Source of the DNA: Lachnospiraceae bacterium
Lineage (GTDB): Bacteria > Bacillota > Clostridia > Lachnospirales > Lachnospiraceae
Direction of reading: 5' to 3'
DNA: 34,004 bases
Assembly: GCA_015057205.1 (NCBI GenBank)
Contig: SVEW01000002.1
Location: 1-34,004, forward strand
The translations under genes were made by a program, and so were the position numbers. Below, piece by piece: positions 3,737 to 30,089 of the stretch. Under the pieces are notes generated by a model. The model did not search any database. It was not told the origin of the DNA and was given only the letters and a program-made list of their open reading frames with translations. Numbering within the stretch: the first letter of the stretch is position 1; each line of letters starts with the position of its first letter.

Positions 3737-3799
3737 ATGAAAAACTACAGAACGAATATGAAATCTGAATATCTTTTAAGGACCTCGGTTGTATTGTAA
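3737..3799 (+). CDS. 20-aa small ORF MKNYRTNMKSEYLLRTSVVL
   Basis: GAGGTG Shine-Dalgarno 8 nt upstream of ATG; lies between a consensus promoter and an intrinsic terminator. Confidence 0.4.
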   Translation: MKNYRTNMKSEYLLRTSVVL

Positions 3800-3814
3800 G
3801 ATAGAATCTATTTT

Positions 3815-3846
3815 GCCGTGGTTTATTTGCCACGGCTTTTTCTTTT
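3815..3846 (+). terminator. Intrinsic terminator
   Basis: GCCGTGG-tttattt(g)-CCACGGC followed by TTTTTCTTTT. Confidence 0.85.
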
Positions 3847-3964
3847 ACCTTTCTCTGTTCTTTTTAAGATATTCATACAAGACTAATTTACCCATTAACC
3901 GTTGGACAATTGCGGCTAAAAATTCCGCGAACGCCCAACCTAAACATTTTTATGGAGGATTTCT

Positions 3965-4894
3965 ATGATGATTCTTAAAAAAATAACAGAAGAAAACTTT
4001 ATTGACGCTTTTCACTTAAACCTTGCGCCGGGGCAGGAAAACTTCGTTTCCCATCCGGTCCGCAGTCTTGCCCAGGCTTATGTCTATCGGAAGCAATGCC
4101 AACCTTTTGGTATCTATGAGGATAATACGATGATTGGCTATGTGATGGTCATTTACGATTATGACATCCCAGAATACGATATCTGGCACATGATGATTGA
4201 TAAATCGCAGCAGAATATGGGCTATGGCAGTCTTGCCTTAAATCTGGTTCTTGATTATATCAAAACCAAGCCTTTCGGTCCTTCCGACCGAGTTACCTTG
4301 ACCTGCAACAAAGACAATATTCAGGCGCTGCACTTGTACAAAAGCAAAGGATTTATAGAGACCGGAGCGGTAGACGACGAGGAAATTGAGCTCTCTTTAA
4401 CACTTCCTCACAAACATGCGAATGAGCCTATTTATCAAATGATTACGGATTTTTCCAGTCCTCTGTTTCAGAAAGCGTTCAAACAGTATTTTGCCGAGCT
4501 TGGTATAACCGTTAACGACTGGACCGGACTTTTTCAGGAAATGAGCGAGGATACGACAACCAGCGCCATTTTATCCACAACAAAAGACGGTTCTCTAATT
4601 GGCTTTCTAATGTTGGCACCACTGCCCACCACCAGTTGGTTTTTTGAAGAAACCTGCGGATTTATCCGGGAATTCTTTATTTTTCCGGAATTTCGCGGTC
4701 AGGGGCATGGTTCCACTCTGTTGGCCGCTGCTGAAAACCATTTCCGCTCTCAAAAAATCTGCACAAGCATTTTGACCACGGATACTGCCCCGGATTTTTA
4801 TCTCCGACATGGCTATCAGCGTGCCCACGGAGTCCGCGCAAAAAACGAAGATGCTGTATTCATCAAACATCTTTTTCCTTTACAAATGCAGTAA
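3965..4894 (+). CDS. Tandem-domain GNAT acetyltransferase
   Basis: Two GNAT domains: MGYGSLALNLVLDYI..LYKSKGFIETGAVDDEEIELSL and FRGQGHGSTLLAAAENHF..DFYLRHGYQRAHGV; GGAGG SD. Confidence 0.85.
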   Translation: MMILKKITEENFIDAFHLNLAPGQENFVSHPVRSLAQAYVYRKQCQPFGIYEDNTMIGYVMVIYDYDIPEYDIWHMMIDKSQQNMGYGSLALNLVLDYIKTKPFGPSDRVTLTCNKDNIQALHLYKSKGFIETGAVDDEEIELSLTLPHKHANEPIYQMITDFSSPLFQKAFKQYFAELGITVNDWTGLFQEMSEDTTTSAILSTTKDGSLIGFLMLAPLPTTSWFFEETCGFIREFFIFPEFRGQGHGSTLLAAAENHFRSQKICTSILTTDTAPDFYLRHGYQRAHGVRAKNEDAVFIKHLFPLQMQ

Positions 4895-28014: not shown

Positions 28015-28240
28015 AAAATCTCTTCTCCATTTCCTGCAAAACCAAGGACGCCGCCTCGTAACCAAAGCCTTTCCCCTGGTATCTACAGTCAATGAAAAAC
28101 TCGCCAAATTCATACGCTTTCTAATTTTCAATATCGTGATAGGTCGCCATGCCAACCGGCTCTTCCTCGTCATAAACAATAAATGCCTTGCTTGCATCAA
28201 AAATCCGAAACATAGGTTATCCCTTTCCATCTTTTCTACC
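28015..28240 (-). pseudogene. GNAT pseudogene with in-frame TAG
   Basis: MFRIFDASKAFIVYDEEEPVGMATYHDIEN*KAYEFGEFFIDCRYQGKGFGYEAASLVLQEMEKRF matches the 853-1290 GNAT; stop replaces the Trp codon region. Confidence 0.75.
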
Positions 28241-29048
28241 ACGAATTACGAACCACGTTCCCCTTCAAGTAAAGGTTTCCTCTCACATCCTCTTTCACAG
28301 CAAGAAGTTGTTCTTTTTTTACCAGATAGGAAACATTCTGCCGGGAACATTCCAAAACTTCACAGCAATCCGACGTATCGAGTAAATTCCCCTTGGCAAA
28401 ACACAGAAAATCGTCAAGTCGAAGCGGAATCGTCTGTCCTCGCTCATAAAGCAGCTTTGCCGGGATGTCAATGGTATCATAAAACGTAATATAATATCCG
28501 CCGGTTCCTACCTCACAGGAATGATATAGACTGTCGTTTTTCAAAATCTTTGCGACACCTTCCACATCCTCCATCTGATGTAAATCCACTTTTTTCACCG
28601 TATCGTCCTCAAAAAAGCAAAGAATCTGCTCCCCCCCACAAGGTACACAATCGATTACATTCTTTCTCCTTTGAAGAACATAATCCGGCAAGTTTTCCAA
28701 CGGCTTGATATAGAAACTGTCCTGAGAACACTTCCCCTTCGACACCTTCAAAAATTCCATTTCATCATACGTTTCCATTTTATGATTTTTAAGAATTTCG
28801 CTGATATTCTGCCGCCCGCTTGGAATAACGCGTTCTTTTACCCATCGGAAGCTTAAGTCTCTTGACACCGTATAAATCCCTTTTTTCACAAGATTAGTAA
28901 ATAAAAGCGGCGCCGTCCACTCATCCAAATCCTCCTGCAATTCAATAATGAATTCTTTGCGTTTCTCGTAATACAGCAACACAGCAACCGCCATGCCTGT
29001 CTCATCATTGATAATCTCATACAGTTTCATATAGCTTATACCTCTCAC
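28236..29048 (-). CDS. DUF2442-like domain plus C-terminal HTH protein, HipA partner
   Basis: VIDCVPCGGEQILCFFEDDTVKKVDLHQM..GGYYITFYDTIDIPAKLLYERGQTIPL resembles DUF2442; LLDTSDCCEVLECSRQNVSYLVKKEQLLAVKEDVRGNLYLKGNVVR HTH-like. Confidence 0.55.
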   Translation of the reverse strand: MRGISYMKLYEIINDETGMAVAVLLYYEKRKEFIIELQEDLDEWTAPLLFTNLVKKGIYTVSRDLSFRWVKERVIPSGRQNISEILKNHKMETYDEMEFLKVSKGKCSQDSFYIKPLENLPDYVLQRRKNVIDCVPCGGEQILCFFEDDTVKKVDLHQMEDVEGVAKILKNDSLYHSCEVGTGGYYITFYDTIDIPAKLLYERGQTIPLRLDDFLCFAKGNLLDTSDCCEVLECSRQNVSYLVKKEQLLAVKEDVRGNLYLKGNVVRNSW

Positions 29049-29835
29049 AAATCATCTGCCAGATTTTCTCCATCAGCAGATCCGGAATCACACCGTCCAA
29101 CCCTTCAAACAGAAATGCACGATCCTTTTCTTCCAACTTTCCAGAAAAAACATTTGCCCTGTCTGCAATCAGATTCAAATTCTCATAACAGGATGTACTT
29201 CCGATAAAATTGTTACACTTTCGGTCTTCCTTGATATCAAACTTCCGGATTTCCTCCTTAGAAAGACACGAATATAGAAGTGACAGACCATGGTCAAAAA
29301 GCGGCGCGATCCGCAAAGTATGGGCTCTACTATTACGCAACACTTCGATATTCGCACCGTGGCGGTCACGATTCAAAATGATAAAGTCCACCGCCAGCAT
29401 GGTATCAATGTAGTTCTGCCATCCCATGCGCTTGCAAAAATCATAATGCGACTCACCCTTTTCGGCATTCACCAGATAATAATCGTCCAACGCTATTTTC
29501 TGCTCGCCGCGTTGTTTGAAATCCTCAGAGCCACACAGGTAAGTCCGGTATTCCCGCCCTTCGATTTCCACATCCGCATGGATTAAGTCATATCGCAAAT
29601 GCTCCACACCCAGGCACGTAAGCAGTCGATCCACAATAAGCTCGTTTACACATTCATGGCCGATGATTCCTTTGACAGAATCATACAACGATAATTTGTA
29701 ATACTGTTTCCTACCGTCCAGCCGTCCCTCTGATTTTAAAAATGTTCCAGCCGTCCCACTTGAACTACGAATATGAGACCAATTCAAGTAAGTCAGATCT
29801 TGTTTTTCTTTAATAAGCAAATGATTCCCTCCCAT
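29017..29835 (-). CDS. HipA-like serine/threonine kinase-fold protein
   Basis: DFIILNRDRHGANIEVLRN catalytic motif and IAPLFDHGLSLL; true start may be TTG at 29820 behind GGGAGGG. Confidence 0.75.
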   Translation of the reverse strand: MGGNHLLIKEKQDLTYLNWSHIRSSSGTAGTFLKSEGRLDGRKQYYKLSLYDSVKGIIGHECVNELIVDRLLTCLGVEHLRYDLIHADVEIEGREYRTYLCGSEDFKQRGEQKIALDDYYLVNAEKGESHYDFCKRMGWQNYIDTMLAVDFIILNRDRHGANIEVLRNSRAHTLRIAPLFDHGLSLLYSCLSKEEIRKFDIKEDRKCNNFIGSTSCYENLNLIADRANVFSGKLEEKDRAFLFEGLDGVIPDLLMEKIWQMICERYKLYETV

Positions 29836-29891
29836 TTGACGTGCGTCAAAAATTTTTATTCATTATACCATTTTATTTGACGCGCGTCAAA
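29835..29891 (-). promoter_or_regulatory. Promoter with two palindromic operators for the HipA-like operon
   Basis: TTTGACGTGCGTCAAA (29835-29850) and perfect palindrome TTTGACGCGCGTCAAA (29876-29891); minus-strand TTGACG-17-TATAAT (29890..29862). Confidence 0.8.
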
Positions 29892-30089
29892 CAAATAATT
29901 TCCTCCGCCATGCAAAAGGAAGTCACTTCCCCGTTGGGACGGTAGTGCGCAATAAACCTTTCCGTACTTTCGAATTATCTCCATTACAATCGGCGAGCTT
30001 TGTCCACATTCCCAGCTTACACCCTGCTCATGGGCAGTTTTGTATCGTTCTTCGTATGCTTCGTAATATTTCAAGTTCTGCATTCTCAT
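29856..30089 (-). pseudogene. N-terminal fragment of a SAM-dependent methyltransferase-like protein
   Basis: MRMQNLKYYEAYEERYKTAHEQGVSWECGQSSPIVMEIIRKYGKV then non-homologous reading into the operator region. Confidence 0.45.

Follow-up and report, generated by a model that had tools for sequence, protein, structure and literature searches.

A minimal HipA-type kinase and its HipS-like, DUF2442 and helix-turn-helix partner: a conserved gene pair of Lachnospiraceae and a predicted self-repressed kinase-antitoxin module

On the minus strand of a 34,004-nucleotide stretch of a Lachnospiraceae genome (contig SVEW01000002.1, assembly GCA_015057205.1; hereafter the window), a gene for a HipA-like kinase overlaps a second gene on its 3' side, and two palindromes lie around the promoter of the pair. 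This raises the question of whether the two genes represent a toxin-antitoxin module of the hip family in which the kinase comes first, or a regulatory system of another kind. The first-pass annotation had named both possibilities, and the elements on which it was built are all there (Table 1): both open reading frames, a pair of palindromes at a distance of 41 bp and, in the kinase, the sequences NRDRHGANIEVLRN and PLFDHGLSLL.

Table 1. Features of the kinase-partner locus, with positions in the window
Feature	Position	Strand	Details
Putative operator O1, TTTGACGCGCGTCAAA	29876..29891	.	Palindrome, 16 bp; covers the -35 box
Predicted sigma-70 promoter	29862..29890	-	TTGACG (29890-29885), 17 bp, TATAAT (29867-29862); 11/12 promoter positions matched
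Putative operator O2, TTTGACGTGCGTCAAA (+ strand)	29835..29850	.	Palindrome, 16 bp; 41 bp from O1
HipA-like Ser/Thr kinase core	29017..29820	-	ORF; 267 aa from TTG 29820 (272 aa from ATG 29835)
Partner: HipS-like domain + DUF2442 + HTH	28236..29030	-	ORF, 264 aa; predicted antitoxin and autorepressor
HipS-like domain of partner	28692..29030	-	Residues ~1-113; hhalign to HipN HipS-like domains 96.7%, 4.5e-10 (single profile-profile comparison)
DUF2442 domain of partner	28428..28664	-	Residues ~123-201; PF10387 in 34/66 homologues, best 6.4e-8; Foldseek 3k8r (TM 0.69), 2auw
C-terminal HTH_17/MerR-Xis type domain of partner	28239..28424	-	Residues ~203-264; PF12728 in 53/66 homologues, best 3.7e-9

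The HipA-like character assigned earlier to the kinase held, but the length of 272 aa is probably not correct. Translation probably starts at the TTG rather than at the upstream ATG, since GGAGGG is found 6 nt before this TTG and since an in-frame start further upstream is lacking in strain XBB1006, a close Lachnospiraceae relative of the window genome (99% identical). The partner probably starts at its ATG, giving a 14-nt overlap with the kinase gene, rather than at GTG 29048. In a profile comparison, the kinase aligned with HipA, HipT and HipI (hhalign probability 96.6%, 5e-10), and its AF2 model (pLDDT 93.4) had CtkA as the best Foldseek match, followed by HipT and HipA. The expected motifs are a Gly-rich loop S20-S21-G-T-A-G25, K42, which is taken as the ATP-site Lys by position only, the catalytic N150-R-D152-R-H154-G-A-N157 and the Mg-binding D176. 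NRDRHGAN aligns with the D309-H311-N314 motif of HipA and LFDHG with D332, so that the catalytic Asp, His and Asn and the Mg-binding Asp each have their HipA counterpart. Loss of these residues would have spoken against the first-pass annotation; among 71 homologues, however, K42, N150-R151-D152-R153, G155-A156-N157 and D176 are invariant, and the catalytic residues overall are invariant or nearly so. With an Asp/Asn pair, a Mg-binding Asp and an ATP-site Lys in a HipA-like fold, the protein belongs to the HipA-homologous superfamily and is, as judged from its sequence, a minimal HipA-type core that lacks the N-terminal lid domain. It remains unnamed in routine annotation because Pfam HipA_C scores it at 13.6 bits, below the cut-off of 30.5, and because a scan against NCBIfam gave no match.

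For the partner, a DUF2442-like middle and a C-terminal HTH had been proposed. Both were recovered through 66 members of the family (Table 1), whereas in the window partner alone they stay below the Pfam cut-off. The AF2 model (pLDDT 94.4) starts with strands (residues 2-31), helices (42-97) and a further strand (106-111), followed by the DUF2442 and then by the HTH, in which C228, R230, Q231 and N232 are conserved. Foldseek related the protein to NE0471, which combines DUF2442 and HTH, to HipA and to a DUF2442 structure, and the HTH region to the DNA-binding domains of BldC, MerR and phage Xis. As the E-values of these matches are weak (best 5e-3), the domain calls rest mainly on profiles. 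The DUF2442 probably serves in dimerisation or sensing. HIRAN did not appear in the list of Pfam families matched by these 66 proteins, and DUF3037 and DUF1829 were absent from the Pfam scan of the same proteins.

These domains bear on the idea that the locus is an ordinary hipBA operon with the gene order reversed (hipAB or hipEB). Kinase-first hip operons, some of them with HTH antitoxins, have indeed been described under the names hipIN, hipJS, hipMP and hipEB (PMC8262856), so that the gene order, correctly noted as departing from classical hipBA, is not in itself new. However, the HTH is here of the HTH_17/MerR-Xis type and part of a three-domain protein of 264 aa, a gene for an XRE HipB was looked for in the operon and none was found, and the N-terminal subdomain that is missing from the kinase resides in the partner. 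The locus thus shows neither the small XRE HipB upstream nor the full-length HipA by which classical hipBA is recognised, and a mere reversal of gene order is hardly credible as an explanation.

The N-terminal subdomain had been overlooked in the first-pass annotation. It is built from strands and helices and ends with a closing strand; W63, R67, P70, R73-Q74-N75 and D104 are its marked residues, and the PADLOC model PDC-M03B matches the window partner at residues 61-120 (1.4e-5). Two canonical PDC-M03 loci encode a kinase and a protein in which the HipA N-terminal domain PF13657 is joined to HIRAN (2.7e-12); the HipS-like domain of HipN itself scores as PF13657. Short relatives of the partner, which consist of the HipS-like domain alone, align with HipN (97.4%, 1.1e-11) and with fused HipA-like kinases of Firmicutes, in their N-terminal domain (98.1%, 1e-13, over 103 columns), and HipN in turn aligns with classical HipS/HipA (92.8%, 4e-7). 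Each of these E-values refers to a single profile-profile comparison. A direct profile comparison of the partner's N-terminal domain with four classical HipS/HipA sequences gave no signal, and the tie to these proteins therefore goes via HipN. By these profiles, the first ~113 residues of the partner share their ancestry with the HipS-like region of HipN antitoxins and with the N-terminal domains of the fused Firmicutes proteins. The AF2 model shows a succession of elements similar to that of the published HipS fold, in which four strands and three helices are followed by a closing strand (PMC10627512). HipS inhibits HipT through a Trp that it inserts close to the Gly-rich loop (PMC10627512), and by analogy the HipS-like domain is likely to be the kinase-inhibiting part of the partner. 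W63 is nearly invariant in the partners, but its role may be structural, since a Trp at the same motif is also conserved in the fused kinases. The partner can accordingly be described as a HipS-like domain, a DUF2442 and a MerR/Xis-type HTH, predicted to unite inhibitor and repressor in one chain. Other combinations occur among the relatives: in three loci (L107, L141 and L132), a single chain carries an XRE or HTH_17 domain, a HipS-like domain and the kinase.

In front of the pair, the proposed TTGACG-17-TATAAT promoter was borne out, and a TG before the -10 box identifies it as an extended -10 promoter. With O1 on the -35 box and O2 between the predicted transcription start site and the start codon, the layout is the autorepression layout claimed at the outset, and it recurs in the family. 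When TTGWC-N4-RWCAA was searched in the 180 bp upstream of the kinase, the operator was found over the -35 in 83 of 91 relatives, as compared to 0.75 expected from shuffles; elsewhere in these loci, 664 kb of sequence gave 6 matches, a background of 0.0016 per 180 bp. The TTGAC of the operator is the -35 in the relatives, the spacer being 17 bp in most of them, and the operator sequence differs by clade (TATTTGACGCGCGTCAAATA, ACTTGACATATGACAAGT, ACTTGACATTTATCAAGT). Of the eight relatives without a strict match, five have one mismatch and two (L094 and L097) have no HTH; in the remaining one (L089), the HTH is present and the operator missing. The operator was likewise not found in two further HTH-less loci (L116 and L117) or in the HIRAN-type loci L154 and L155. 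With one-mismatch forms counted, it accompanies 88 of 89 partners with an HTH and none of 6 without, although this association reflects few independent events because the loci are related by descent. The spacings of the twin sites cluster at 32-34, 41-45 and 51-52 bp, which approximates three, four and five turns of the DNA helix (p about 0.01 in a simple randomisation of distinct spacings, again among loci related by descent). Judged from these sequence features, the pair seems to repress its own promoter. Besides O1 and O2, no site with fewer than two mismatches was found in the 2.2-Mb draft genome, and a wider regulon of the operator was rejected on the basis of these two sites being the only ones. 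In XBB1006, a third TTTGACGTGCGTCAAA site lies ~200 bp 3' of the module, before a downstream acetyltransferase gene, and would fit a remnant or a small regulon.

Conservation of the pair elsewhere was a further check on the first-pass annotation. Genome contigs confirmed 99 relatives, of which 80 were retained. In every locus where the contig continues (~90 relatives), the partner gene lies directly 3' of the kinase gene and usually overlaps it. Clustering of 979 neighbouring ORFs placed the kinase in 96 loci, the partner in 95 and the next cluster in 9, with no sign in these clusters of a third conserved component. By this measure the two genes form a cassette that is conserved and complete in itself, and its distribution is patchy and independent of context. 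A close full-length kinase was present in ~15 of 200 sampled Lachnospiraceae genomes, and among 148 genomes drawn across the class, a full-length partner was found in one (G225) besides the window's own. In gut and rumen Lachnospiraceae, the small kinase thus appears, from the loci compared, always to be followed by a second gene for a predicted kinase-capping and a DNA-binding domain. Between the window (28224-29908) and XBB1006, the module is 98.9% conserved, while the sequences on either side differ through insertions or deletions up to the points where synteny is regained. The minus strand of the window (1-31000) contains many small single-gene units, encoding GNAT acetyltransferases, NUDIX, HAD and flavodoxin-like proteins, and forms a variable-gene region.

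One neighbour deserves separate mention. The trpS gene is located ~1.7 kb upstream on the same strand, and as HipT acts on TrpS (PMC6581861), the kinase could be thought to target TrpS in the same way, with the adjacent trpS as part of the module. However, trpS is not conserved next to the modules of the relatives, and it is the sole copy found in the draft genome, which means that there is no spare resistant copy. We therefore rejected trpS as a functional partner; its proximity appears to be coincidental, and a HipT-like action on TrpS is very improbable.

In a rapid maximum-likelihood phylogeny of 49 kinases, whose deep branches are long and unsure, the kinases with a DUF2442-HTH partner form one clade (88% SH-aLRT) that is nested with HTH-less relatives (98%). 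This fits a single gain of the DUF2442-HTH part, and the simplest history suggested by the tree is that of a kinase with a free lid domain to which DUF2442-HTH and operator were later added. As to carriage by phages, a phage collection gave weak matches only; two viral contigs were hit, one of them with a shortened kinase, and there was one close match on a plasmid. On a viral contig with phage genes (L175:7989-8501), an in-frame deletion leaves ~82 residues from the start of the kinase directly followed by the final 87 of the partner, comprising the end of the DUF2442 and the HTH; the operators are retained. On plasmid pNP95 (NZ_CP043029, L176), kinase and operator are intact and the frame of the partner shifts near its start, by either a true frameshift or a sequencing error.

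Several of these observations could also be accommodated by a split kinase, in which the HipS-like domain completes and activates the enzyme and the HTH holds down the amounts of the two proteins, the system then being a signalling or regulatory one and not a toxin-antitoxin pair. The lid domain of HipA belongs to the active enzyme, and the partner could for this reason activate instead of inhibit. N-terminal domain and kinase are joined in one chain in several Firmicutes relatives, and the kinase is unusually conserved: its mean pairwise identity is 59%, as compared to 31% for the DUF2442 and 42% for the HTH of the partner, which could fit a housekeeping regulatory kinase. An intact kinase next to a broken partner on pNP95 would likewise be odd for a toxic kinase, unless the frameshift is a sequencing error. 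On the other hand, HipS, the characterised free form of the domain, inhibits (PMC10627512), and a tight autorepression layout in a patchy, context-free cassette is typical of toxin-antitoxin systems. On balance, we consider a split kinase unlikely.

A role in phage defence of the HipAD/PDC type would be compatible with the kinase-antitoxin reading. In such a system, the partner would sense infection, through its DUF2442 or through loss of binding to the operator, and free the kinase for abortive infection. The PADLOC PDC-M03 models match all 71 scanned kinases (PDC-M03A matches that of the window at 4.1e-8) and 57 of 66 partners, and PtuA, DRT2 and several PDC genes were found among the neighbours. 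An HTH-less relative (L094) adjoins an AAA ATPase gene and a PtuB-like HNH gene, resembling Septu. In the validated DS-6/HipAD system (HipA with DUF3037; PDC-M66), deleting the partner causes toxicity, and phage defence depends on the kinase (PMC12548924, PMC13092281). However, PDC-M03 is itself a candidate system, and a distant one, and many neighbours are housekeeping genes. Defence genes are present among 113 neighbours, but 107 control genes also match PADLOC models, and since control regions of the same family match defence models as well, an enrichment is not established. By analogy a phage-defence role is plausible, and we hold it as a tentative reading with less than an even chance. 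A more specific version, that of a new hip family whose partner acts as inhibitor, as DNA-binding repressor and possibly, through its DUF2442, as a sensor of infection or stress, and so couples release of the operator to release of the kinase during phage defence, is doubtful.

Taken together, we consider it probable that the locus is a two-gene, self-repressed kinase-antitoxin module of the hip family. Domains, catalytic residues, gene order, conserved operator and the association of operator and HTH can all be read directly from the sequences compared. This reading is favoured because the pair is conserved with nothing else conserved nearby, because the catalytic residues align with HipA and the N-terminal domain of the partner is homologous to the HipS-like domain of HipN, because the operator is conserved at the -35, tracks the HTH and has clustered spacings, and because the DUF2442-HTH kinases form a single clade. 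It is also favoured by the precedents of HipS acting on HipT, of the HipAD partner deletion and of DhiTA. In the proposed mechanism, the first gene would encode a minimal kinase core, and the HipS-like domain of the partner would substitute for the missing lid by docking on the kinase and keeping it inactive. DUF2442 and HTH would bind both inverted-repeat operators, of which O1 covers the -35 and O2 lies close by on roughly the same face of the DNA, and thereby shut the shared promoter. Loss, degradation or titration of the partner would then free the kinase and reopen the promoter, and the free kinase would phosphorylate a target, an aminoacyl-tRNA synthetase being in keeping with the family, and slow growth, plausibly in response to stress or phage. 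We infer the DNA binding of the partner, the inhibition and toxicity of the kinase, its target and its trigger.

If this is true, a single protein combines the free lid (HipS) of HipA-type kinases with a DNA-binding repressor, and the module packs into two genes a function for which hipBST uses three. The lid domain occurs fused to the kinase, free, with HIRAN or with DUF2442-HTH, and the operator goes with the HTH; these arrangements would form a natural series for studying how a lid becomes an antitoxin. As the family scores under the Pfam and NCBIfam thresholds, common bacteria of the gut and rumen carry it without a name; it would represent a version of the hip toxin-antitoxin family missed by current annotation, with a compact, conserved pair of predicted repressor and operator.

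Among known systems, hipIN, in which the HipI kinase is followed by HipN with its HipS-like domain and HIRAN (Gerdes et al. 2021; PMC8262856), shares with the module a kinase-first bicistron, a short core without N-subdomain and a 3' partner that opens with a HipS-like domain, and the same layout was seen in the PDC-M03 loci examined. However, HipN ends in HIRAN instead of DUF2442 and HTH, and the module has a dedicated palindromic operator and a kinase on a separate, well separated branch. With hipBST (HipB XRE, HipS and HipT), the module has in common a lid domain on a separate protein and, by prediction, an operon that encodes both repression and inhibition, but it consists of two genes, the predicted inhibitor and repressor form one downstream-encoded chain, and its HTH is not XRE. 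The window genome also has a true hipBST (G000:C122 about 3741-4031, L147), with a HipB-like XRE protein of 74 aa, a HipS of 106 aa (PF13657 at 4.7e-26) and a HipT of 332 aa. HipAD likewise combines a HipA-like kinase with a large, predicted DNA-binding partner other than HipB, but that partner is a DUF3037-DUF1829 protein, and PDC-M66A matches only 1 of 71 kinases. The fused Firmicutes HipA-like kinases (~380-470 aa) have a homologous N-terminal domain and kinase core in a single chain, some with XRE or HTH_17 in front. NE0471 (PDB 2auw) shows the DUF2442-HTH layout, and in DhiTA (DUF4160/DUF2442) a DUF2442 protein is the partner in a toxin-antitoxin pair (PMC8198452), but neither has a kinase or a HipS-like domain. 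In the published open-licence papers searched, we found no protein that joins HipS-like domain, DUF2442 and HTH and has a conserved paired operator, no work on PDC-M03 by name and none of relevance on HipA with DUF2442 or in Lachnospiraceae. Kinase-first hip operons and HipS-like partners are thus already known, and what is new, as far as searched, is the HipS-like, DUF2442 and HTH chain with its paired operator.
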